Of a DNA stretch of 64,000 bases, positions 44,717 to 57,302 are shown one piece after another. Location: contig JAJSZS010000006.1 in NCBI GenBank assembly GCA_030262725.1, positions 5,001 through 69,000 of the forward strand, given 5' to 3'. Positions within the stretch are counted from its first letter, which is position 1, and each line of letters opens with the position of its first letter. Source of the stretch: Candidatus Desulfofervidus auxilii. GTDB taxonomy: Bacteria > Desulfobacterota > Desulfofervidia > Desulfofervidales > Desulfofervidaceae. Position numbers and translations under genes: made by a program. A model generated the notes under the pieces. The model ran no database searches, was not told the origin of the DNA, and saw only the letters and a list, made by a program, of their open reading frames with translations.

Positions 44717-44745
44717 TTGACTAAAAGGATTTATTGAAGTAATTT
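44717..44745 (+). promoter_or_regulatory. Predicted promoter of the roadblock-MglA-PilB operon
   Basis: TTGACT (44717-44722), 17-nt spacer, TAATTT (44740-44745). Start near 44752 gives a 20-nt leader with AAGGAGG (44761-44767) before ATG 44773. It rules out the ATG at 44746. No other clear promoter is seen until 54789. Confidence 0.6.
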
Positions 44746-44772
44746 ATGAGAGAGTTGAAAAAGGAGGATTTT

Positions 44773-45159
44773 ATGGATATTATTCTGGAGGAAGAAAAAG
44801 TAGATAAACTTACATTGCTTTTAAATAAATTAATAAATGAAGGTGGTGCAAGTTATGTTCTTCTAACTGATATGGCTGGTAATTTGATTTGTAAATCAGG
44901 GGAAGGTTCTATAGATGCTACTTCATTAGCAGTACTTTCTGCTGCGAATTTTGCAGCAACAAAGGAAATTGCCCGTTTAATAGGAGAAGATGAGTTTTCT
45001 CTTTTATTTCATCGTGGTCAAAAGGAAAATATTCATTTTACAAGAATTGATCCAGAAATCTTAATGATTGTGCTTTTTAAACCATATGTTTCTTTAGGGC
45101 TTCTTCGGATAAAAATAGAAGGTATAAAAAAAGAAATCCAAAAAATTCTTGGAGAGTAA
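44773..45159 (+). CDS. Roadblock/LC7-domain protein (MglB-like)
   Basis: 128 residues. Roadblock fold: helix LTLLLNKLINEGGASYVLLTDMAGNLICKSG, then AVLSAANFAATKEIARLIGEDEFSLLFHRG and LLRIKIEGIKKEIQKIL. MglB-type roadblock dimers are GAPs for MglA; the gene sits 2 bp before the MglA-type gene, so it is the probable GAP or co-regulator. Start fixed by AAGGAGG five nt upstream. Confidence 0.87.
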   Translation: MDIILEEEKVDKLTLLLNKLINEGGASYVLLTDMAGNLICKSGEGSIDATSLAVLSAANFAATKEIARLIGEDEFSLLFHRGQKENIHFTRIDPEILMIVLFKPYVSLGLLRIKIEGIKKEIQKILGE

Positions 45160-45161
45160 TT

Positions 45162-45812
45162 ATGGCTGTTATTAATTTTAAAGAAAAGCTAATTCAAGTA
45201 AAAATTGTTTATTATGGCCCAGGAAGAAGTGGGAAGACAACAAATTTGATTTATATTTATGATAAACTTCAACAAAAATTAAGTGGAAGACCAGCTAGTA
45301 GATTAATTACAATAGATACTAGAGGTGATAGAACTCTTTTTTTTGATTTTTTCCCAGTAGATTTAGGTAAAATTTATGGTATGGATTTAAAAATTCAACT
45401 TTATACTACACCAGGACAAGTAGTTTATAATACCACTCGTAAATTGGTATTAAAGGGAGTTGATGGTGTTGTTTTTGTAGCTGATTCTTTACCTGCACGT
45501 CGTCAAGCAAATATTGAAAGCCTTCAAAATCTTAAAGAAAATTTAGCTCATTATAACTTAAAAATTGAAGACATACCATTAGTTTTTCAATGGAATAAAA
45601 GAGATTTGGAAGATGAAGGATTAGTTTTATTGGACATTGAGACATTAGAGGACGATTTAAATAAAGAATTGAAGGCGCCTTCTTTTCCAGCAAGCGCTAT
45701 AAGGGGGTATAACGTGTTTCAAACTCTTAAACAAATAGCAAAGTTAACTATTAGTTCTGTTATTAGAAAATTTATGTTATCAGAGCAAATAGTAAAAGTT
45801 GCAGGAGGTTAA
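45162..45812 (+). CDS. mglA: MglA-type small Ras-like GTPase
   Basis: 216 residues. P-loop GPGRSGKTT (19-27), TTPGQVVYNTTRK (G3, 82-94), NKRD (G4, 145-148). The stretch TLFFDFFPVDLGKIYG and KGVDGVVFVADS is very close to Myxococcus MglA, a polarity GTPase that switches motility machinery. The roadblock gene upstream and PilB-like gene downstream support that role. About 20 residues longer than Myxococcus MglA at the C-terminus. Confidence 0.93.
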   Translation: MAVINFKEKLIQVKIVYYGPGRSGKTTNLIYIYDKLQQKLSGRPASRLITIDTRGDRTLFFDFFPVDLGKIYGMDLKIQLYTTPGQVVYNTTRKLVLKGVDGVVFVADSLPARRQANIESLQNLKENLAHYNLKIEDIPLVFQWNKRDLEDEGLVLLDIETLEDDLNKELKAPSFPASAIRGYNVFQTLKQIAKLTISSVIRKFMLSEQIVKVAGG

Positions 45813-45819
45813 AATTAAG

Positions 45820-46896
45820 ATGGAAGAAAAAGAATTTTCTTTAGAAAAATGGGAACAAGAAATAAATAAAGAGCTTTCTTTTCTTGAAGAAATTTTAGAT
45901 GAAAAAGAAACTTCTGAAAAGCCATCTCCAACATGGCAAGTTTTGGAAAAGAAATTAAATAATTTTTTAAAGGTAAAAGATAAAAGTTTAGGAGAAGAAA
46001 TTCTTTCTCAATGTGAAAGTCTTATTTCAAAAACAGATAAATCAACACAGCTTTATCTTCGTCTTATTCAAAACCTTGTTAAAGGGCTTTTAAAATTTGA
46101 AAATATTTCTCAATTATTAAATAAAATGGTTGCAAATTTACCACTAATTTTTTCTAATGCTAATCCTACTAAAAAAGAAGATTTAGTTCAAAGTTTTTAT
46201 TATCAATATCAGACATTAAAAGGAAAGCCTAGTTCTTCTTTAAGAGAAACAAATTTGAAAAAAGAAGAAATAGAAAATTTATTAAAACAAGTTATTGAAA
46301 GTGTTGAAGCCAAATTACACGAAATTAACATTAAAGTGGAAGAAAATCAAAGAACTTTGCATCGTTTATTAGTAGGTCCCTCTCCAGAAAAAATTGAGCA
46401 AGAAAAGATAGAAGGTATTAAAGAAACACCTGAAAATGAAGAAAAATTTTATATATTGGAAATAGGAGAAAAGAAATTTGCCCTTCCAGCGGAGACAGTG
46501 GTAAATGTTTATAAAATCTCTCCTAAAAAGGCAAAAAAATTAACTCAAAAATCTTTAATTAAATTTGGCCAATTAGGGAGTTTTTTTAACCCTATTACTA
46601 AAGGGTTAAAAGGAGAATTAAAGAAAGTTAAAAAGAGCCAGTTAAAAAATATGTTCTTGAATGTATTTCAACCTGCTGAAGGTTTGCAAAATAACAATTA
46701 CAATGGTGCAGTAGTAGTTAAAGTTTCTGATATAGATAGTTATGGTGTAATATTTGTTGATCGTATTCCTTCTTTAGATAAACCTATTTCAGGAAAACTT
46801 CTTGAAGATAAAGTAGAGACTCCAGAAGGTACTTATCCATTTTTAAATTTAAAAGCTTTATGGACAGAAAAGCAAATAGAATTAGGTTTAACATAA
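45820..46896 (+). CDS. Helical protein with degenerate CheW-like C-terminal domain (copy 1)
   Basis: 358 residues. N-terminal ~200 residues highly charged and predicted helical with a coiled coil (IENLLKQVIESVEAKLHEIN). C-terminal domain (~208-350) looks CheW-like: FYILEIGEKKFALPAETVVNVYKI, later GAVVVKVSDIDSYGVIFVDRI, with a long Lys-rich insertion between. Homologous to the gene at 51068-52450. Probably an adaptor, but no CheA or receptor signalling domain is nearby. Start ATG 45820 with AGGAGG 11 nt upstream; a TTG start further back is unlikely. Confidence 0.7.
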   Translation: MEEKEFSLEKWEQEINKELSFLEEILDEKETSEKPSPTWQVLEKKLNNFLKVKDKSLGEEILSQCESLISKTDKSTQLYLRLIQNLVKGLLKFENISQLLNKMVANLPLIFSNANPTKKEDLVQSFYYQYQTLKGKPSSSLRETNLKKEEIENLLKQVIESVEAKLHEINIKVEENQRTLHRLLVGPSPEKIEQEKIEGIKETPENEEKFYILEIGEKKFALPAETVVNVYKISPKKAKKLTQKSLIKFGQLGSFFNPITKGLKGELKKVKKSQLKNMFLNVFQPAEGLQNNNYNGAVVVKVSDIDSYGVIFVDRIPSLDKPISGKLLEDKVETPEGTYPFLNLKALWTEKQIELGLT

Positions 46897-46905
46897 TAAA
46901 TAACT

Positions 46906-47487
46906 ATGCTTAAAGGAAATATACAAGATGTTTCTGTAGCAAGTGTAGTCCAGCTTTGTTGTCAGGAGAAAAAAAGTGGTTGTTTATCTTTCTATAAAGA
47001 TGCCATTAAAATTGGTGATATATATTTCCAGGATGGAGAAATTATTGCTGCCCAAATGGATAATTTAAGTGGAGAAAAGGCTTTTTATAAACTTATTAGA
47101 TTAAAAAGTGGTGAATTTATCTTTCAAAATAATGTTCCCCTTCCACAACGACAAATTAACAATTCTTTTGAATATCTTCTTTTAGAAGCAGCTCGTTATG
47201 AAGATGAAATGAAAGGTTACTTAGATAGTATAGTAAAAAAACTTACAAAAATTGTTGGTAAAGTAAAAGAAATAGAAGAGGCATCTCCATTTATTAAAGA
47301 AATTTTTTTATTTTTATCTCAATGTGGTTATCTTTTAGAAGCAGGACCTATAGAATGGATCTGGTTAAAAGAAGAAGAAAATATTTCTTTATTTTTAGAA
47401 ATAAAAGGAGAGATTTTTAAATTTGCCCTACCCTCTCAAACTATTTTAGAAGAGGTTTTCTCACAAATTTCAATAAAGGGGAAATAA
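46906..47487 (+). CDS. PATAN/DUF4388-domain protein (1)
   Basis: 193 residues. N-terminal DUF4388 (PATAN) domain: LKGNIQDVSVASVVQLCCQE, KKSGCLSF, GDIYFQDGEIIAAQMDNLSGEKAFYKLI, GEFIFQ. The C-terminal ~100 residues are unassigned. PATAN proteins regulate type IV pilus motors in cyanobacteria, which fits the PilB-type ATPase downstream. Directly abuts the next gene. Confidence 0.83.
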   Translation: MLKGNIQDVSVASVVQLCCQEKKSGCLSFYKDAIKIGDIYFQDGEIIAAQMDNLSGEKAFYKLIRLKSGEFIFQNNVPLPQRQINNSFEYLLLEAARYEDEMKGYLDSIVKKLTKIVGKVKEIEEASPFIKEIFLFLSQCGYLLEAGPIEWIWLKEEENISLFLEIKGEIFKFALPSQTILEEVFSQISIKGK

Positions 47488-48426
47488 ATGTTTCTGCCTC
47501 GATTTAAAGTGCGTCTTAGCAATCTTCATACATACTATTTAGAAATGCCTAAATTAATTGAATTTTTAAAAAATGATTTATTTACTGGTTATATACAAAT
47601 TCAAGCAGAAGGAAAGAATCTAATGATTTTTTTAGATACAGGACAGATAATTAATTGTTTAGAAGTTTCAAACAATGATTATCGTAACATTACTTTAGAA
47701 GAATTATTAACTAATATAAAAAAAGAAGAATTTGTTCATGTTTTTTATTTACCTGAAAATACTGTATTATTTTGGGCTAATTTATTTACAGGAAAAATCC
47801 TCTACCCTGATCTCAGTACTGAATTTACTGATGCAAATCGATTGATTCAAAAACTTAAACGTGAAAATTTAACAGGTTGGATGGAAATTAATCTACCTAT
47901 GGAAGAAAAAGGAATCATTTATTTTCAAAATGGTGAAATCATAGGTACTTGTTCTTCTTGGAGAAAATGGAATTTTCAAGAAGGTGAAGAATTTCTTCCT
48001 GAAATTACAGAAAGAATATCTCAGGCAACATTTGATGTTTATAAATTGACATTAGAAGAAACATTAGAAAATAATCTTACAGTAGAAAATATTCTTTCTT
48101 TTTTTCAAGAACTTATATCTGCTTTGGAAGATATTATTGGAGAGAAAGAATTCTTTTTGTTATGGCGCCATAAAGCTATTGAAAAAGCAGAAAAATATCC
48201 ATTTCTTGATCCATTTGCTAATGAATTTGAATATAAATCAAAAAAGATAATCTATGAAGGTACTGCATCAGAAAAGGAGTTGATAGATGGATTGAAAGAA
48301 ATATGTGGGGAAATTATTAAAGAAAGAAAATTACAAAAAGAAATTAGCTCCAAAATAAAAGAATTAAAGGAAAAATATAAACTTTTTATTGAAAAAGCTG
48401 AATTATTAGAGCTTTTTAAAGTTTAA
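47488..48426 (+). CDS. Protein with two PATAN-like repeats (2)
   Basis: 312 residues. Two weak copies of the PATAN core: FLKNDLFTGYIQI ... MIFLDTGQIINC (~27-60) and KLKRENLTGWMEI ... IIYFQNGEIIGT (~127-155). C-terminal ~150 residues helical with a Lys/Glu-rich coiled coil (ISSKIKELKEKYKLFIEKAE). Zero gap upstream, one base before the next gene. Function inferred only from the PATAN pattern and context. Confidence 0.72.
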   Translation: MFLPRFKVRLSNLHTYYLEMPKLIEFLKNDLFTGYIQIQAEGKNLMIFLDTGQIINCLEVSNNDYRNITLEELLTNIKKEEFVHVFYLPENTVLFWANLFTGKILYPDLSTEFTDANRLIQKLKRENLTGWMEINLPMEEKGIIYFQNGEIIGTCSSWRKWNFQEGEEFLPEITERISQATFDVYKLTLEETLENNLTVENILSFFQELISALEDIIGEKEFFLLWRHKAIEKAEKYPFLDPFANEFEYKSKKIIYEGTASEKELIDGLKEICGEIIKERKLQKEISSKIKELKEKYKLFIEKAELLELFKV

Positions 48427-48427
48427 A

Positions 48428-48790
48428 ATGGAAAAAATAATTGAAAAAATACTTAATTTAGATGGAGTTAAAGGTGTCTGGTTTATTGAAGGTGAGAAAA
48501 TAATAGAAAGATTAATACTTCCTTTGGACCCTGAAACTTCAAGACGTTTAAAAAGGATTTTCTCTCGATTGTTCTTATTTTTTCAAGAAAGAAATATAAA
48601 AAAAGAAATTGGTGTAGTGTTTAAACATGATTATTTGTTTTTTAAACCAACAAATATGGGTTGGTTCACAATATGGATTAAAAGAGAGACAGAAACTTCT
48701 TTAGCATTGCTTAGAATGGAAATTGAAGTTATTTTAAGTGAAATTAATAAACAAAAATGGAGTTTATTAAAGAAATTTAAATTTTGGTAA
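48428..48790 (+). CDS. Small protein, possibly divergent roadblock/LC7
   Basis: 120 residues. Order helix - strand (GVKGVWFIEGEKIIE) - helix (RRLKRIFSRLFLFFQE) - strands (EIGVVFKHDYLFFK, GWFTIWIKRE) - helix (LALLRMEIEVILSEI), which resembles a roadblock domain although key residues are not conserved. It could replace or pair with the first roadblock protein. No other family recognised. Confidence 0.6.
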   Translation: MEKIIEKILNLDGVKGVWFIEGEKIIERLILPLDPETSRRLKRIFSRLFLFFQERNIKKEIGVVFKHDYLFFKPTNMGWFTIWIKRETETSLALLRMEIEVILSEINKQKWSLLKKFKFW

Positions 48791-48796
48791 AAAGAA

Positions 48797-49582
48797 ATGG
48801 CTGAGATATTAAAAGGAAATATTAGACAAATTAATATACTTGATTTATTAGGATTACTTGTAAAAGCAAAACATACTGGTAGATTGTCTGTTACTACTCC
48901 TGAAGGAGAAGGTCTTGTCTTTCTTAATGGAGGAGAAATTTATGCTGCTACTCTTGGAGGGAAAAAAGGATATGAAGCCCTTTTTGACCTTGCTAGACAG
49001 ACAGAAGGAAACTTTAGCTTTCAAGACAAATTAGTTACTTCTGAAAGACATTTTCATGAAGATACAAATGCCCTTTTAGAAAAGATTGCTGAAGATTTGA
49101 AAACATTTACTTCAATAACTTCTGCTTGGAATAAAGTTGTTACCCTCATTCCTAAAGAACAAGAGGTAACTTTATCTCCTAAAGATTGGATAGTAGTAGC
49201 TTTAAGTCAAAAAAACTTAACAATTTCTGAAATAGCTCAAGAAGGGGAAGTGGATCCGGTTGAGGTATTGCGTACAGCTAAAAAATTGGAAGAGATGGGT
49301 TTGGCAAAACTTCAAGAAAAAGAAAAAGTTACAGAGAAAAAAACACAAAAGGTAATTCCTCCAATTTTTTGGAAAACTTTAAAAGCAGAATTAGCTGCTC
49401 TTATAGGACCTATTGCTGAAGCAGTTATTGAAGATGAGATAGATAGTTTGGGTGAAACAAGGGAGTCATTTCCTTATAATAAAATATCAGCACTTATAGA
49501 CCGGATTTCTCAAGAAATTGACGGTGAGGAAAGGAGGATTACCTTTAAGAAAAAAATGTTAGAGATACTAAAACGAGCATAG
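48797..49582 (+). CDS. PATAN/DUF4388 protein with helical and C-terminal DUF8082-like parts (3)
   Basis: 261 residues. PATAN domain ~1-90 (LKGNIRQINILDLLGLLVKA, TGRLSVTTPEGEGLVFLNGG, GYEALFDLA, GNFSFQD); middle winged-helix-like stretch (SQKNLTISEIAQEGEVDP, ~150-180); C-terminal helical domain starting AALIGPIAEAVIEDEIDSLG, resembling the domain often C-terminal to PATAN in myxobacteria. Probably another regulator of the motor. 9 bp before the receptor gene. Confidence 0.8.
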   Translation: MAEILKGNIRQINILDLLGLLVKAKHTGRLSVTTPEGEGLVFLNGGEIYAATLGGKKGYEALFDLARQTEGNFSFQDKLVTSERHFHEDTNALLEKIAEDLKTFTSITSAWNKVVTLIPKEQEVTLSPKDWIVVALSQKNLTISEIAQEGEVDPVEVLRTAKKLEEMGLAKLQEKEKVTEKKTQKVIPPIFWKTLKAELAALIGPIAEAVIEDEIDSLGETRESFPYNKISALIDRISQEIDGEERRITFKKKMLEILKRA

Positions 49583-49591
49583 GAGGGGACT

Positions 49592-50479
49592 ATGAGTCTT
49601 AAAGGAAAATTTGTTCTAATATTTTTAATTATTTCGCTTATTCCATTGCTTCTTGGTGCAGGTGCCAGTTATTATCATCTCAAAAAAATCCATCAATTAT
49701 TTTTATCTCAAACTGTTTCTAGTTTAAGAGATTTAGGAGAAATCTTAGTGGAGCAAAAAGTTGAAGATATTGTGAGGATGTTAGATTTTTATATCCAAAC
49801 ACAGGTTCGTAAGCGGCCAGGAGAAAAAATTAATTGGGATGAGCTTCAATATGATCCTGTTTTTATTCGAATAGCTGTTCAAACAGTTGGGAAAACAGGA
49901 TATTCATCTGTACAAAAAATAGAAGATGGAAAAATTTCCATTTTTGCTCATCCTAACCCCAAATTTATTGGAATAGATATAAACACTTTTAAAAAAAGTA
50001 ATCCAGATTTTTGGCGAATTATTAAAGGCCCAAAGCCTGGTGAACGGTTTAGTAAGGGTTATTATCCTTGGAAAGAACCTAATGGCCGAGTTGAAAATAA
50101 ATTTACTGTAGTAATGCCTGTTCCTGATACACCTTTAACTGTAGCTGCTACAATATATACTAAAGAGGTCGAAGCACCTTTAAAAAGTTTTGAAAAAAAT
50201 CTTTTATCATTTCAAAAACAATTTTTATGGCAATTTCTTTTGGGTGGTGCTATTATTGTGATATTAGTTATTGTAATAGCTATTTTATTTGCCTTACACT
50301 TAGTTAAACCAATTTTACATCTTACAGATGTAGCAGAAAGAATTAGTTTAGGTGAGTTGAATGTACCTATTGAAATCACTTCTACGGACGAAATAGGTGA
50401 TTTAGCCGATGCTTTAAGAAGAATGCAAGCAAGCTTAAGAAAGGCAATTCAACGCTTACAAAGAAGACAAAAAATCTAA
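49592..50479 (+). CDS. Membrane receptor with Cache-like sensor and HAMP, no output domain
   Basis: 295 residues. Membrane helix 7-27, periplasmic Cache-like sensor (~40-210, with YSSVQKIEDGKISIFAHPNP and FIGIDINTF), second membrane helix 213-235, HAMP linker 236-290 (LVKPILHLTDVAERISLGEL, STDEIGDLADALRRMQASL). It ends right after HAMP, with no kinase, cyclase or MCP domain, so the signal must pass to a separate cytoplasmic partner such as a CheW-like protein. GGAGGGG ahead of the ATG. Confidence 0.87.
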   Translation: MSLKGKFVLIFLIISLIPLLLGAGASYYHLKKIHQLFLSQTVSSLRDLGEILVEQKVEDIVRMLDFYIQTQVRKRPGEKINWDELQYDPVFIRIAVQTVGKTGYSSVQKIEDGKISIFAHPNPKFIGIDINTFKKSNPDFWRIIKGPKPGERFSKGYYPWKEPNGRVENKFTVVMPVPDTPLTVAATIYTKEVEAPLKSFEKNLLSFQKQFLWQFLLGGAIIVILVIVIAILFALHLVKPILHLTDVAERISLGELNVPIEITSTDEIGDLADALRRMQASLRKAIQRLQRRQKI

Positions 50480-50493
50480 TTTAGGAGAATAAA

Positions 50494-51003
50494 GTGAAGA
50501 TAAAATGCTGGCTATTATTGATATTAGCAATAATTTTCAGTATTACTTTTAAAACTCATTCACAGCTAGTTTCAGCCCCTCCAGAATTATTGAGGATTAG
50601 AGATTCTGGTTTCGCAAAATTTGGTCCATATAAGTATCCACCAGTAAGTTTTTCGCATGAGCTTCATGCTGGTTTATATAGGGTAAAATGTTCTACTTGT
50701 CATCATCTATATGAAAATGGAAAAAATGTATGGACACCTGAGCATGGAGTTCAAGAATGTTCTGATTGTCACGGGAAATCTAAAACAGAACTTACTGTTG
50801 CTTATCACATGAAATGTTGGGGATGTCATGAGAGATTGGAAGGAGTATATTTAGAATCGGATGCACCTATTAATCAATGTTTTAGATGTCATCTTAAAAA
50901 TATTGAAGTAGAAAAAATAAGAATTCATCAAAAGTTGAAAAAAACTAATAAAAAATTGATGGATGCTATAAAACAACTTGAACTAAAAGGATTTTATAAA
51001 TAA
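50494..51003 (+). CDS. Exported tetrahaem c-type cytochrome
   Basis: 169 residues with an N-terminal signal/anchor (hydrophobic 5-20) and four CxxCH sites: C66-C69-H70 (CSTCHH), C89-C92-H93 (CSDCH), C108-C111-H112 (CWGCH), C129-C132-H133 (CFRCH). Additional His (H55, H58, H71, H84, H105) could serve as distal ligands, as in class III c3-type cytochromes. GTG start with AGGAG upstream. It sits between the receptor and CheW-like genes with short gaps (14 and 64 bp), an unusual place for a cytochrome. Confidence 0.88.
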   Translation: MKIKCWLLLILAIIFSITFKTHSQLVSAPPELLRIRDSGFAKFGPYKYPPVSFSHELHAGLYRVKCSTCHHLYENGKNVWTPEHGVQECSDCHGKSKTELTVAYHMKCWGCHERLEGVYLESDAPINQCFRCHLKNIEVEKIRIHQKLKKTNKKLMDAIKQLELKGFYK

Positions 51004-51067
51004 AAAGATGGGCATTTATAATATTTTAGCCGATTTTATAATAAAAAATAAAATGAAGAGGTAGGTT

Positions 51068-52450
51068 ATGATGGAGCAAATTGATTTAAAAAAATTAGAA
51101 GAGGCTGCTTTTTCAGCTATAGATGAGCTTTTTTCTGAAGAACCGGAATTGAAAGACGAGCGCATTTTGCGGCTTGAAGAGGCAATTCTTAGTCTAGATT
51201 GGGAGTTTACTCACAAAGATTTAAATAATCTAAGGCTTGCTATTCAAGAATTGATTGAAACTTATGATGATAAATTAAACAAAGCCATATTGTCGATGAT
51301 GGAAAGCATTACTAAATTTTTAATTATATCTAAAGAATTAGCGCCACCTGAGACTCTAACTGTTTTAGGAAAGATAGCTAAAATTTTTAGGGAATTAAAT
51401 ACTTTAAGTTTTCCTGAAAGGGAAAAGAAAGCTAAAGTTAAAGAAGCTTATGCCCTTTTTAATCGCTGGCGAGAAGAAATAACTCAGATAAAGAAGACAA
51501 AAGAAGAAAAAGAGAAAAAATATGAAGAACCTCCTAGAGAGATACCTGTGCCAGCTATTACAGAAAGGGCAGTAGTTGAAGTTAAACCAGAGGTACCCTT
51601 AGATCTCTCTGAAAAAATGGTTATAGATGAAAAGACTTTTTCTCATTTAAAGGAATTAGTCCAATCTTTAAAAGAAGATTTACAAGCAGAAGGTAAACAA
51701 GTTGCTTTTTACTTTCAAAAATTAGAGACAAAAATTTCAGATGTTTTAAAAGAAATTGAACAAATTTATTCACGATTAGTTATTATTGAAGATTTTAAAT
51801 TGGAATTTGATTTTCTAAAACAAAAACTAATAGAGTTAGAAAATAAATTAAAAGAAGAAAAAATTGAAGTCGTTGAAGCAAAGGAAAAGGCTTCTTTAGA
51901 GGAGATAAAAAAAGAAATAGAAGAAATAGAAAAAATATCAGAAGTAAAAGAAGAGGAAGTGAAAGAAGAAGTTATCGCAGAAGAGCCTTTAGAAGAGATG
52001 TGGCCATATGTTTTGGTTTTTTCCTTTGGAAATAAATTAATAGCTTTACCAGTAGAAAACATAGCTAATATTTATTCTATTTCTCCTAAAAAAGCACAAA
52101 AGCTTAAAGAGAAAGAAAAAATCTATCTTAAAGAGCTTAAATCATTTTGGCGTAAATTAAGAAAAAATATGAAAGGAAACTTAAAGAATTTAAAAGAAAA
52201 AGAATTGGAAAAAATGGAAGTGCCTGTGTTGAGCCTTTCCCAAAGTGATGAGGGGTCTTATAATACAGCTGTACTTATAGAATCTGGAGAGAAACATGGT
52301 GTTTTATTTCTTGGAAAAATTATATCTAAAAATACATTTTTACCTGAAAAAGGAAAAAAGATTGAAGAAAATGAGATAGAAGCAGAAGTTGAAATTCCAG
52401 ATAAAGGTATTGCTTATTTGGTAAATCCAAGTTATTTTTTTGAAACTTAA
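51068..52450 (+). CDS. Coiled-coil protein with degenerate CheW-like C-terminal domain (copy 2)
   Basis: 460 residues. N-terminal helical region (~1-150), Pro/Glu linker, coiled coil (~200-310), then a domain matching the copy at 45820: YVLVFSFGNKLIALPVENIA, SISPKKAQKL as in SISPKKAKKL of copy 1, and AVLIESGEKHGVLFLGKII. Both share the same basic insertion, so they are paralogues with a lineage-specific CheW-like fold. Acidic tail and Lys/Glu repeats. ATG at 51068 or 51071; three bases from the ATPase gene. Confidence 0.72.
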   Translation: MMEQIDLKKLEEAAFSAIDELFSEEPELKDERILRLEEAILSLDWEFTHKDLNNLRLAIQELIETYDDKLNKAILSMMESITKFLIISKELAPPETLTVLGKIAKIFRELNTLSFPEREKKAKVKEAYALFNRWREEITQIKKTKEEKEKKYEEPPREIPVPAITERAVVEVKPEVPLDLSEKMVIDEKTFSHLKELVQSLKEDLQAEGKQVAFYFQKLETKISDVLKEIEQIYSRLVIIEDFKLEFDFLKQKLIELENKLKEEKIEVVEAKEKASLEEIKKEIEEIEKISEVKEEEVKEEVIAEEPLEEMWPYVLVFSFGNKLIALPVENIANIYSISPKKAQKLKEKEKIYLKELKSFWRKLRKNMKGNLKNLKEKELEKMEVPVLSLSQSDEGSYNTAVLIESGEKHGVLFLGKIISKNTFLPEKGKKIEENEIEAEVEIPDKGIAYLVNPSYFFET

Positions 52451-52452
52451 TT

Positions 52453-54789
52453 ATGGCGGTTAGAGCAGAAAGAAAAGAATTAGATCAAACCAAATTTAAT
52501 ACACATTTAAAAGAAGCAGAGATATATTATGATCAAGGACTTTATAGAGAAGCAAAGGAAATTTATTTAAAGTTACTTTCTCAATTAGAAAATATGTCCC
52601 CTACTCCGCAAATAGACGCTCAAAAACATATGCTTAAAGCAAAAATTGAAGAAATAGAAAGTATGCAACAAAAAACAGAAGAAAATGTGCTTACTTTTCC
52701 AACTACTCATGAAAAAGAAAGTTCTTCTGAAATATATGAAAAAGCTCAAGTTTTTAAAGAATTAGGACTTTATAAACAAGCTATTGAAGAGTTTAAAAAG
52801 GCTTTATATAAGGGCTATAAAATAGAAGAGTGTATTCATAATGTTATTAACTGTTATGAAGCTCAAGGTAATAAACTTAATGCTATTTCTTTTTTAGAAC
52901 AGATTTTAAATCATCCTTCTTTTTCTAGATATAGAGAACAAATTAAATATAAGTTAGGTGAATTATATGAAGCTGTAGGAGCTTATGGTAAAGCATTAAA
53001 TTACTTCAAGAGTATTAAAAATAAAGAGAAATTTCCTGATGTAGAACAGAAAATTAAAAGTTTATCTTTTCGTGCAAGAGGTGGAACACGTTTTGATTAT
53101 CTTCTTCGAGAGGGCATTATTACTAAAGAAGAATTGGAAGATGCTGTTACTGAATCAAAAAAAGAGAATAAAAGTGTTGAATTTATTCTTATGCAGAAAT
53201 ATGGAGTGCCTAAAGAAGAAATTGGAAAATCTTTATCACTTTTTTTCGGTTGTGAATTTGTTTCTTTTGACCCCAGTATACCTATACCTTTGGATTTAAT
53301 TAGAGGATTAAAATATCAATATCTTAAACATAATGGCTGGGTACCTTTACGAAGAGAGGAAAATAAAATTATTGTTGCTATTGATAACCCTCATGATCTT
53401 TCTAAGTTAGATATTATTAAAACTCTTCTGCAAAGTTCAGACATTGAATTAGTAGTAAGTATTAGAGAAGATATAGAAAATTTTATTGACTATTTTTGGG
53501 GGCAAGAAAGCACACCTTCTATTGAAGAACTTGTTGAAACTGTTGAGGAAGTAGCTATTGACGAAGAAGCTGAAGAAGTATCAGAAGCAGATAGTAGGGT
53601 TATTCAATTTGTAAATCAAATGATTCTTGATGCATGGCGAAAAAAAGCATCAGATATTCATATAGAACCTTCTCCTTCAGATAAAATTACACGTATTCGG
53701 TTTCGTATTGATGGTATTTGTCAACCTTATATTCAAGTGCCTAATGCATTTACAAGGGCTGTTGTTTCAAGAATAAAGATTATGGCTAATCTTGATATTG
53801 CAGAAAAAAGATTACCTCAAGATGGTAAAATAAAATTCAAACAAAAAGGTAAAGATCTTTTGGAATTGCGTGTTGCTACTGTTCCAACAGTAGGGGGACT
53901 TGAAGATGTAGTGTTAAGATTGCTACATACTGGTACTCCTTTAAAACTTAATGAAATTGGAATGTCTGAAAGAAATTTAAAAAAATTTATTGATATTATT
54001 TCTCAACCTTATGGTTTAGTTTTAGTAGTAGGACCAACTGGTTCAGGTAAAACAACTACCCTTCATTCAGCCTTAAGTTATATAAATACTCCTGATAAAA
54101 AAATATGGACAGCTGAAGATCCAGTAGAAATTACTCAACCAGGTTTAAGGCAAGTAGAAGTTCGCCCTAAAATAGGTCTTACTTTTGCTCGTATTATGAG
54201 GTCATTTCTTAGAGCTGATCCTGATGTGATTATGATTGGTGAGATGCGTGATGAAGAAACTGCTACTATTGGTATAGAAGCTTCTCTTACTGGTCACCTT
54301 GTTTTTTCCACACTTCATACTAATAGTGCCCCAGAAACAGTAACAAGACTTTTAGAGATGGGTTTAGATCCTTACAATTTTGCTGATTCTTTACTTGGTG
54401 TCCTTGCTCAAAGGTTGATACGCACTCTTTGCAAAAACTGTAAAGAGGCATATCATCCTACTAAAGAAGAATTTGATGAATTAGTTGCTGAATATGGAGA
54501 AGAATATTTTGGGCGAGTGGGAGTGAAATATTCAGGTAATTTAATCCTTTATCGACCAAAAGGATGTGATGTATGTGGTGGCACTGGTTATAAAGGAAGA
54601 ATGGGTATTCATGAATTACTTATTAATGATGATGAAATAAAAGCATTAATAAAGAAAAAAGCTCCTACAGAGGAAATTAGAAAGGTGGCAATTCGTCAAG
54701 GTATGACTACTTTAAAACAAGATGGTATTGAAAAGGTGCTTAAAGGATATACTGATTTGAAAGAAGTAAGGCGTGTTTGTATTAAGTAA
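52453..54789 (+). CDS. PilB/GspE-type ATPase with N-terminal TPR-like and MshEN domains
   Basis: 778 residues. TPR-like helical repeats (~20-48, ~95-120, ~130-190), MshEN domain (~212-348), then the secretion ATPase: Walker A GPTGSGKTT (527-535), DVIMIGEMRD (591-600), LVFSTLHTN (617-625), and a Zn site C660, C663, C705, C708. It would drive assembly of a type IV pilus or type II secretion pseudopilus. The N-terminal TPR-like part is not typical of PilB and may be the docking site for MglA or PATAN proteins (inference). No pilin, PilT or PilC gene is in the window. Confidence 0.9.
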   Translation: MAVRAERKELDQTKFNTHLKEAEIYYDQGLYREAKEIYLKLLSQLENMSPTPQIDAQKHMLKAKIEEIESMQQKTEENVLTFPTTHEKESSSEIYEKAQVFKELGLYKQAIEEFKKALYKGYKIEECIHNVINCYEAQGNKLNAISFLEQILNHPSFSRYREQIKYKLGELYEAVGAYGKALNYFKSIKNKEKFPDVEQKIKSLSFRARGGTRFDYLLREGIITKEELEDAVTESKKENKSVEFILMQKYGVPKEEIGKSLSLFFGCEFVSFDPSIPIPLDLIRGLKYQYLKHNGWVPLRREENKIIVAIDNPHDLSKLDIIKTLLQSSDIELVVSIREDIENFIDYFWGQESTPSIEELVETVEEVAIDEEAEEVSEADSRVIQFVNQMILDAWRKKASDIHIEPSPSDKITRIRFRIDGICQPYIQVPNAFTRAVVSRIKIMANLDIAEKRLPQDGKIKFKQKGKDLLELRVATVPTVGGLEDVVLRLLHTGTPLKLNEIGMSERNLKKFIDIISQPYGLVLVVGPTGSGKTTTLHSALSYINTPDKKIWTAEDPVEITQPGLRQVEVRPKIGLTFARIMRSFLRADPDVIMIGEMRDEETATIGIEASLTGHLVFSTLHTNSAPETVTRLLEMGLDPYNFADSLLGVLAQRLIRTLCKNCKEAYHPTKEEFDELVAEYGEEYFGRVGVKYSGNLILYRPKGCDVCGGTGYKGRMGIHELLINDDEIKALIKKKAPTEEIRKVAIRQGMTTLKQDGIEKVLKGYTDLKEVRRVCIK

Positions 54790-55801
54790 TCTTTATTTCA
54801 TTTATTTCTCCAATACTTTTTGTATGTTCTATTTTTCTCTTTAAAAATTGATTAATTATCCAAATATTTGTAATAAGATGTGAAGAAATGATAGTTTTAA
54901 AACAAGATTGTCCTGATGCAAGACAAAGATAAGGTATAATTTGATCTGCTAAATGTTCTTCTAAACAAACATTTGCTCTATAATAAGTAAAAAAATATTT
55001 AAATACTTCTTCTGCTACTTCTTCTGCAGGTTTTCCCTTTGCACCCAATGCAGAAAATCCTGCTTTTATTTTTTCATCAATCCATAAAAAAAGAAAACTT
55101 CCCTTCCCTTTTCCTGAAGCTTCAATTTCTTCTTTAGATTTAATTTCTAATCCTATTTCTTTTAAACGAAAGATTAATCTTTCAATTTGTCTTTTCCTCA
55201 CATGTTCTGGTAAATGAGAAGAAGCAGAAATGGCTTTAAGACATGAAAAATTAGGTGGTTCATTCCAAGATTGAGCTTTTAATTCTTTGGCAGGAAAGAC
55301 TCTTATAACTATTTCTCCACCACCTTCTGGATACCAACCCCACTGATATAATTTAAGTTCTATTTTAATCCCTATTGAATTAAGCATTGGCGCAAAAACA
55401 TATTTTAAATAATGAAATGGAGGACTCCAAGGAACATGCGTACCTCCTTTGATTTTTATTTCTGAAGCTTCATTTGCCATACTTAATGGTAAAAGGATAC
55501 TTTGTAAAACCAAGCTAGTAGAACCTGCTGTGCCAATATCAAAATTGTATTTTCCTGGAAAAATCCCTTTTGGAGAAAATCTTAATTTTTTTGCACCTAT
55601 TTCTGCTCCATCTACATCTGCATGTGTAATTTTTTGCACCGCCTTTACACAAACAAGATGCTGAGGACGTAATCCTGGTTTTGGTCTTTTTGCTCGAATA
55701 TTAAAAATTTCAATTGGTTTTTGTAAAATTGCAGATAAAGCAAGACTTGTCCGTAATATCTGTCCCCCACCCTCGCCATAAGAACCATCAATTTTAATCA
55801 T
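54782..55801 (-). CDS. rtcA: RNA 3'-terminal phosphate cyclase RtcA
   Basis: 339 residues; forms 2',3'-cyclic phosphate at RNA ends with ATP. MIKIDGSYGEGGGQILRTSL start, GTAGSTSLVLQS (~90-101), PEGGGEIVI, and the histidine that is adenylylated in E. coli (His309) matches H308 in SSHLITNIW. The start at 55799-55801 overlaps the GTPase stop (ATGA); an upstream in-frame start lies inside the GTPase gene and is unlikely. Overlaps the PilB-like gene by 8 bp at the 3' end. Confidence 0.93.
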   Translation of the reverse strand: MIKIDGSYGEGGGQILRTSLALSAILQKPIEIFNIRAKRPKPGLRPQHLVCVKAVQKITHADVDGAEIGAKKLRFSPKGIFPGKYNFDIGTAGSTSLVLQSILLPLSMANEASEIKIKGGTHVPWSPPFHYLKYVFAPMLNSIGIKIELKLYQWGWYPEGGGEIVIRVFPAKELKAQSWNEPPNFSCLKAISASSHLPEHVRKRQIERLIFRLKEIGLEIKSKEEIEASGKGKGSFLFLWIDEKIKAGFSALGAKGKPAEEVAEEVFKYFFTYYRANVCLEEHLADQIIPYLCLASGQSCFKTIISSHLITNIWIINQFLKRKIEHTKSIGEINEIKIT

Positions 55802-56760
55802 GTTCGCAACTCTACAATATCTTTGTCTTGCAATATATAATCTTTCTCTACCCTTAAACCATTTAATTTTTTGTTCCAAATACGAGCAAATTTTAGATTA
55901 GCAGCAATTTCCCGATGGACCTTTTCAGCAAAATCTAAGATTGTGCTTCCTTTTTTAATAATAAAAGGTTCTTCTAAATCTGGTTTTTTTCCTGGTGCTT
56001 TTGAATAAATGCGAATAACATCTAGATGTTGAAAGATTCTTTCAGCAAGCATATTGAGATTAATATTCTTTTCAACAGAAATAGGAATTAATGGTAAATC
56101 CAATTCCCAAAAAGATTGAAAAATCTCAAAAACTTCATTTGCTCCAGGTGCGTCTATTTTATTAGCAGCCACAACAGTTTTTTTAAAAAAGAAACCTATT
56201 GTTTTTTCTAAAATCTTAATCTTAAGTTCTTCAAGACGTTTTAAAATATTTTCCCATTGATATAATGGATCATCAGTTAAGTCTAACATTATTAACAATA
56301 AATCCGCTCGCCGAAGAACATCTCCTACCCAAGGCTCTATATATTCAATTGTTAAAGCAGGCATATCTATTAGTTGAATTTTGATATCTTCAAATGGCAT
56401 CATTCCCGGTATAGGTATACGCGTTGTAAAGGGATAATCTGCTACTTCTGGGGTGGCTTTAGTTACTTTTCTTATAAAGGCAGATTTACCTACATTAGGA
56501 AATCCAACTAATGCTACCTGTCCTGCTCCTTCTTTTTCAATTACATAACTTACACCCTTTTTAGTCTTTTTTTTAGCTTCAATAGCACTTTTAATTTGTG
56601 CTAGCTTTCGTCTTAGAGCTGCTCGCAATTTATCAGTACCCTTATGTTTTGGCATAATCATGAGCATTTCTTCAAGGAAAGCCATTTTTTCTTGTAGTGT
56701 TTTTGCTTCTCGATATTTTTTTTCAGCAGCGTAATATTGAGGTGGAAGATTGGCAGGCAT
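55798..56760 (-). CDS. DRG/OBG-type GTPase with TGS domain
   Basis: 320 residues. Helical N-terminus (~10-65), G domain with ALVGFPNVGKSAF (G1, ~84-96), YPFTTRIPIPGMM, IQLIDMPAL (G3), AANKID (G4), and C-terminal TGS-like part (TILDFAEKVHREIAANLKFA, QDKDIVEL). The pattern matches the DRG-related GTPases of archaea and some thermophilic bacteria, thought to act on ribosomes. Between an HsdR_N-like gene and rtcA, all on one strand. Confidence 0.87.
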   Translation of the reverse strand: MPANLPPQYYAAEKKYREAKTLQEKMAFLEEMLMIMPKHKGTDKLRAALRRKLAQIKSAIEAKKKTKKGVSYVIEKEGAGQVALVGFPNVGKSAFIRKVTKATPEVADYPFTTRIPIPGMMPFEDIKIQLIDMPALTIEYIEPWVGDVLRRADLLLIMLDLTDDPLYQWENILKRLEELKIKILEKTIGFFFKKTVVAANKIDAPGANEVFEIFQSFWELDLPLIPISVEKNINLNMLAERIFQHLDVIRIYSKAPGKKPDLEEPFIIKKGSTILDFAEKVHREIAANLKFARIWNKKLNGLRVEKDYILQDKDIVELRT

Positions 56761-56765
56761 AATTA

Positions 56766-57302
56766 TTAACTGCTTAAACTACATTCTTTACAACTTACTG
56801 GACACTTCCAAACATCAAAAGCAGCTAATATCCTTTTTTCTTTTTCTTTTCTTTCTTCAGAAATAGGATCAAAACGGAATTTAGGTAACATTTCTTTTAA
56901 TTCATTTTTTGTTGGAATAGCATTTAAATCTTCAGCTATTACTTTACCTGAATATGTATCTAAAACTTCTGTAGCAAAACCATCAGTAATAACAGTTAAA
57001 GGGATTGGGTAATTGTCTAAAAGGCGAGCACAAGCAAGGGTAACTTTCTCTCGAGTGATCAAAGCTGTAGGAAAACATTTGATTAAAATAAGTCTTTTTC
57101 CTTCTAACCTTATGATATAATCAATAGGAATTACTATCTTCTTTTCATTTGCTATGGTTTCAAATATAATGTTTATTTCTATATCTGACTTATCATATCC
57201 TTTTTCTTCAACTAAAAATCTTCCAACCTTTTGTCTTAAACGTTCCATATCAGTATCTGGCAATTTTTTTCCAGTAAAAAAGTCAACAATTTCTTCTGCC
57301 AT
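56766..57302 (-). CDS. Orphan HsdR N-terminal-like (PD-(D/E)xK-fold) protein
   Basis: 178 residues resembling the N-terminal nuclease-fold domain of type I restriction R subunits (VEEKGYDKSDIEINIIFETIA; VIPIDYIIRLEGKRLILIK). D61 fits the first acidic site and K75 the lysine, but the acidic residue expected two before the lysine is L73, so nuclease activity is doubtful. The end has C167-x3-C171-x2-C174 (CPVSCKEC), a possible metal site. No helicase, HsdM or HsdS gene is near. AAGGAG 6 nt before the ATG. Confidence 0.75.
   Translation of the reverse strand: MAEEIVDFFTGKKLPDTDMERLRQKVGRFLVEEKGYDKSDIEINIIFETIANEKKIVIPIDYIIRLEGKRLILIKCFPTALITREKVTLACARLLDNYPIPLTVITDGFATEVLDTYSGKVIAEDLNAIPTKNELKEMLPKFRFDPISEERKEKEKRILAAFDVWKCPVSCKECSLSS

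Follow-up and report, generated by a model that had tools for sequence, protein, structure and literature searches.

In Myxococcus, the GTP-bound form of MglA binds the TPR protein SgmX, and SgmX in turn localises the pilus extension ATPase PilB by an unknown mechanism, no direct SgmX-PilB contact having been found (PMC11580455). PATAN and TPR proteins co-occur with SgmX in STRING. In Synechocystis, PATAN proteins bind PilB (PMC9090330, PMC10519157), and a survey published in 2014 notes PATAN genes near some mglA genes (PMC4316618).

The locus described here lies in a 64-kb window (the whole stretch of DNA that was analysed) from a heat-loving sulfate-reducing bacterium of the Desulfofervidaceae. 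With the MglA-SgmX-PilB system of Myxococcus xanthus (PMC11580455, PMC7519303, PMC7668184) it has in common the MglA/MglB pair, a TPR element and PilB as the target; however, the TPRs that M. xanthus carries on a separate 14-TPR SgmX are fused here to PilB itself and the operon encodes no separate SgmX, receptor, PATAN and CheW-like proteins are added, and there is no Frz gene in the operon. It resembles the cyanobacterial PATAN-REC regulators of PilB1 (PixE and PixG; PMC9090330, PMC10519157) in that PATAN proteins are linked to the pilus extension ATPase, but its PATAN proteins carry no REC domain, the operon contains neither a photoreceptor nor CheA, and MglA is present. Che arrays that control type IV pili likewise combine a membrane receptor with HAMP and CheW-fold proteins, whereas an MCP signalling tip, CheA, CheY, methylation genes and REC domains are all missing from the window operon. 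The MglA groups of the 2014 survey also have mglA beside PATAN genes, and the text searched mentions no link to a receptor, a cytochrome, CheW-like proteins or PilB (PMC4316618). The statement of a preliminary description of this DNA, that no system with all of these parts is known to be described, agrees with the open-access literature searched, although the proximity of PATAN genes to mglA was noted in the 2014 survey. By analogy, our best model is that the operon would work like MglA-SgmX(TPR)-PilB of Myxococcus, with the TPR effector forming part of the motor protein and with PATAN proteins acting as adaptors as in cyanobacteria.

Eleven ORFs were found on the plus strand between positions 44746 and 54789 (Table 1), separated by gaps of 0-64 nt except for one overlap of 14 nt, which bears out the earlier account of eleven genes in the same direction with small gaps. 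The operon is flanked upstream by a divergent gene (44609, minus strand) and downstream by a convergent one (55879-54782, minus strand). The single promoter that had also been proposed was not borne out, the region holding 39 promoter-like matches compared to 44.6 ± 7.9 in shuffled sequences; two of these matches lie directly upstream of gene 10. Pfam searches over the operon returned Robl_LC7, a Ras-type GTPase, HAMP, Cytochrom_CIII, T2SSE, MshEN and TPRs, as well as DUF4388/PATAN in three proteins (71, 37 and 52 bits), and no meaningful family for genes 3, 6 and 10. Downstream of the operon, in the interval 54782-57302 (minus strand), genes for a TGS/DRG-like GTPase and an RNA 3'-phosphate cyclase adjoin that of an HSDR_N_2 protein.

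Table 1. Genes of the operon, with their positions in the window and the evidence for each assignment.
Feature	Position	Strand	Evidence
Gene 1, MglB-type roadblock, presumed GAP of MglA, 137 aa	44746..45159	+	Robl_LC7 48.6 bits; profile to M. xanthus MglB structures, E 9e-33
Gene 2, MglA Ras-like GTPase, 216 aa	45162..45812	+	PDB matches to MglA; P-loop, R57 and Q86 conserved
Gene 3, CheW-like protein a, 365 aa, helical N-terminus and CheW-like C-terminal domain	45799..46896	+	34% identity to gene 10 C-terminal domain
Gene 4, PATAN protein A, 193 aa	46906..47487	+	DUF4388 71 bits
Gene 5, double-PATAN protein B, 312 aa, conserved C-terminal FLDPF..EF motif	47488..48426	+	Two DUF4388 stretches; alignment of 11 orthologues; phylum survey
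Gene 6, second roadblock-fold protein (predicted), 120 aa	48428..48790	+	AF2 pLDDT 88.8; top PDB matches roadblock, MglB
Gene 7, PATAN and winged-helix-like protein C, 261 aa	48797..49582	+	DUF4388 52 bits; weak ArsR/MarR-type HTH matches
Gene 8, membrane Cache-HAMP receptor without output domain, 295 aa	49592..50479	+	HAMP 53 bits; sub-threshold sCache_2
Gene 9, periplasmic tetraheme class III (c3/TmcA-like) cytochrome, 169 aa	50494..51003	+	Cytochrom_CIII 36 bits; 4 CxxCH; NCBIfam TmcA 64 bits (cut-off 114)
Gene 10, CheW-like protein b, 460 aa, N-terminal AIDELF...LSLDWEF motif	51068..52450	+	AF2 pLDDT 89.7; Foldseek CheA-P5/CheW E 4e-7; motif survey
Gene 11, TPR-MshEN-PilB extension ATPase, 778 aa, presumed T4aP motor	52453..54789	+	T2SSE 418 bits; MshEN 49 bits; TPRs; full-length PDB matches PilF/PilB

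By its sequence, gene 2 belongs with the MglA family and is closer to MglA than to other GTPases. Its best PDB matches were MglA of T. thermophilus (E 3e-57) and of M. xanthus (E 2e-52), and it keeps the P-loop, a switch arginine (R57) aligned with the arginine of the MglA sequence DRTLFFDF, and the glutamine (Q86) of PGQ. Gene 1 is closest to MglB, since a profile of nine relatives placed the M. xanthus MglB structures first. For gene 6, no Pfam Robl match was obtained and hhalign support for a roadblock was weak; a roadblock fold is nevertheless predicted by its AF2 model, whose top PDB matches were roadblocks including MglB. The CheW-like domain behaved in the same manner, with no Pfam CheW match and a negative sequence-profile comparison with CheW, while the significant PDB matches of the modelled C-terminal domain of gene 10 were all to CheA-P5/CheW, so that this domain is predicted to have the CheW fold, and gene 3 is homologous to gene 10 in this domain. 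Both AF2 models were built from alignments of window and relative sequences. The two CheW-like proteins and the second roadblock of the preliminary description are therefore upheld by structure prediction and have no sequence-family support. An N-terminal motif of gene 10, [ILV]DxLF ... L[DE]WE, is common to proteins encoded just downstream of mglA at 25 loci and corresponds to no Pfam family; the pattern was picked after the sequences had been seen, and its association with mglA (25/31) is descriptive only. This motif may be an MglA- or PilB-binding element.

The genome that contains the window (G000) encodes three other extension ATPases, two in T2SS-type clusters and one of MSHA type, each with its own GspF neighbour; the gene for the T4aP PilC lies by itself on a separate contig, and the genome also has pilMNOPQ and a pilT pair. 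The same ATPase-GspF pairing, with a T4aP PilC that has no ATPase of its own, was found in G001, G003 and G004. Since every other extension ATPase in these four Desulfofervidaceae genomes is paired with its own GspF, the TPR-PilB encoded by gene 11 is presumed, by exclusion, to serve the unpaired T4aP PilC. The alternative assignment of gene 11 as a GspE is ruled out by this one-to-one pairing. The nearest solved relatives of full-length gene 11 are PilF and PilB, a ranking partly biased by the truncation of the GspE constructs in the PDB. Walker A and B are kept in gene 11 and in all 18 TPR-PilBs aligned. The RLGxxL...Q signature by which MshEN domains bind c-di-GMP is lost in 18 of these 18 proteins and kept in the MshE of the window genome. 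The TPRs make up the N-terminal 200 aa and are the fastest-evolving part of the protein, with 45-62% identity within the family versus 84-90% for the ATPase domain.

At seven loci outside the family (L091 and L095 of the Syntrophaceae, and L162, L163, L168, L169 and L187), pilM directly follows the cassette or the mglA part of it, and at the three of them that were tested Pfam confirmed PilM, PilN, PilO, PilP or secretin. The two independent arrangements, with the cassette either beside TPR-PilB or before pilMNOPQ, tie it to the type IVa pilus, a link that the gene neighbourhoods support well. The exclusion argument is weaker in Desulfobacterales, because those genomes hold a second PilB-type ATPase with a different N-terminus, which we read as GAF-like. 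ATPases of this kind were seen at the Desulfobacterales-type loci L188, L190 and L191, with a PATAN gene nearby in L188 and L191. A TPR-PilB homologue of Desulfamplus (L062:16801-18612; 603 aa) has apparently lost MshEN.

Synteny also bore out the earlier view of a single conserved cassette tied to a pilus motor, the genes co-occurring across Desulfobacterota. All eleven genes are present in identical order in the sister genome G001, and G004 keeps the same order except that genes for two Peripla_BP_6 binding proteins replace that for the cytochrome. In G003, which belongs to the same genus as G004, mglA and almost all of the other genes are lost and TPR-PilB is kept, with a 218-aa CheW-like remnant, from which the CheW domain is gone, encoded before it; the TPR regions of G003 and G004 are 62% identical. 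The gene order of the window operon is largely kept in a member of the Desulfohalobiaceae (L060) and in Desulfamplus (L062). Eleven loci of Desulfobacterales type (L065-L067, L071, L074, L075, L110, L157, L159, L160 and L181) carry, with small variations, a version ordered mglB-mglA-(gene 10 N-terminal type)-wHTH-(zinc ribbon) Cache-HAMP-double PATAN-REC-PATAN-second roadblock-TPR-PilB. A TPR-MshEN-ATPase was encoded near mglA in 16 loci of the named set.

Of 395 genomes sampled from the phylum, 53 matched a double-PATAN profile, and in 29 of them the match was full-length (>190 bits); a Cache-HAMP gene was nearby in 24/29 of these loci and mglA in at least 15/29, as counted by hand in neighbourhoods several of which end at contig ends. 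At L170-L178 the Cache-HAMP/double-PATAN set, usually with a PATAN-wHTH gene, occurs without mglA and, where checked, adjoins DctP-type binding proteins of TRAP transporters; it is possibly the same sensory unit with another output. In a tree of 92 MglA proteins the cassette-bearing ones fell into several deep groups, with the label clustered far above shuffles, a figure to which near-copies contribute; this clustering is as expected of an old, repeatedly modified module. The operon was absent from the loci L196-L200, taken from genomes with weak double-PATAN matches. PATAN proteins with partial double-PATAN similarity are encoded at L196 and L198 beside the gene for a small membrane protein, and multiheme or CxxCH proteins are encoded in the vicinity.

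In the gene 8 product, two hydrophobic segments flank a periplasmic part and are followed by HAMP, and the protein ends about 25 residues further on; the aligned homologues are built alike. The slot beside the receptor gene is occupied among relatives by a c3 cytochrome, a Peripla_BP_6 protein, a PhnD-like protein or a DctP protein, which suggests, from gene order, that it is an exchangeable slot for a periplasmic input. A cytochrome fills it in two of the three Desulfofervidaceae operons and in none of the Desulfobacterales versions inspected. The periplasmic parts of the receptors are 58% identical between the two cytochrome operons compared to 61-62% between a cytochrome and a binding-protein operon, and thus give no sign of co-adaptation to the partner. 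Of the proposal that the cassette senses a periplasmic signal, possibly redox, the periplasmic input is supported by the conserved Cache-HAMP receptor and its exchangeable neighbour, whereas the redox part is held back by the limited occurrence of the cytochrome. Redox sensing by the cytochrome would accord with the position of its gene.

Collectively, we favour the reading, with a probability of about 0.6, that the operon encodes a self-contained unit controlling the extension of type IVa pili, in which MglA would act on the TPR domain fused to PilB. A periplasmic protein (here the tetraheme c3-type cytochrome, elsewhere a solute-binding protein), a ligand, or both, would act on the Cache domain, and HAMP, without a kinase or MCP output, would relay the state of the receptor to PATAN proteins in the cytoplasm, the CheW-like proteins serving as a scaffold. 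The state of the PATAN proteins would then shift the control of MglA by MglB and the second roadblock between the GDP and GTP forms, and MglA-GTP, possibly together with PATAN proteins, would engage the TPR domain, so that the motor is recruited or activated at the pilus base. Direct contact between MglA and the TPRs would be expected by analogy with SgmX. Three observations stand against this reading: the TPR region is retained in G003 although mglA is gone, so the TPRs must serve something besides MglA; the receptor identities given above show no adaptation to the periplasmic partner; and the conserved receptor/PATAN set also exists without mglA. More tentatively, the route may be free of phosphorylation, a Cache-HAMP receptor whose periplasmic partner is exchangeable (a redox cytochrome in this operon) directly controlling the cycle of a Ras-like GTPase through PATAN/CheW-like adaptors, and the GTPase acting directly on a TPR domain built into the motor. 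In Myxococcus the step from MglA and its TPR effector to PilB is an open question, and the fusion of TPRs to PilB inside an MglA operon offers a small system in which an MglA-TPR-PilB contact is directly testable. The operon is also a candidate for a pathway from receptor to small GTPase without kinase output, and the cassette would represent a regulator of pili that is widespread among sulfate reducers and as yet undescribed.

The same genes could instead form a polarity module and not a signal switch, MglA, MglB and the second roadblock placing TPR-PilB at one pole and the receptor and cytochrome only biasing the choice of pole, as in Myxococcus. The MglA and MglB encoded here match the polarity pair of Myxococcus, where SgmX and PilB are brought to a pole by MglA (PMC11580455); however, the receptor and PATAN genes are as constant in the cassette as mglA, which suggests that the signal input is central, and we regard this explanation as rather unlikely. 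Still less probable is that the CheW-like proteins hook the operon into the ordinary CheA arrays of the genome, with a phosphorelay driving the pilus. Although the CheW fold appears real and the genome holds two separate CheA/CheW sets, at least one of these lies with flagellar genes, the receptor has no MCP tip, the domains show no sequence similarity to CheW, and the window operon contributes no REC domain. The earlier claim of a switch working without CheA/CheY stands for the window operon and fails for relatives, in whose cassettes REC-PATAN fusions, PAS proteins and histidine kinases occur; relatives of the gene 4 product carry REC at the N-terminus, as in L048, where REC is followed by DUF4388. 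The Geobacter esn electrode-sensing system was considered as a counterpart and is ruled out, esn consisting of MCP, CheW, CheA and diguanylate cyclase genes at other loci. A loose gene cluster with no common function, to which the retention of PilB without the rest in G003 might point, is hardly credible, being contradicted by an order conserved over deep MglA clades and by the two independent linkages to pilus genes.

A reading that is compatible with our main model, and that we consider a serious possibility though short of probable, is that the cytochrome, instead of sensing, carries electrons for extracellular or interspecies transfer and is co-regulated with the pili. The host belongs to the family of the electron-transferring partner bacteria of AOM (relative L059), and the nearest family of gene 9, TmcA, is a redox-chain cytochrome; on the other hand, solute-binding proteins occupy the position next to the receptor in relatives, and G001 and G003 have another tetraheme cytochrome gene, of c554 type, directly before that of a haem-bearing MCP-type receptor (L154:7347-10039 in G001; L150:5249-7681 in G003). 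This receptor has one CxxCH between its two membrane segments, and Pfam confirmed the MCP domain for the G003 protein. The arrangement in G001 and G003 supports the redox idea. The operon may also connect redox state with pili in a family that partners methane-oxidising archaea; if the phosphorylation-free redox route were true, these sulfate reducers, kin of methane-consuming partner bacteria, would extend their pili according to redox state. In G003, where the MglA cassette has been lost, a Che operon with the c554-type cytochrome directly precedes pilC.
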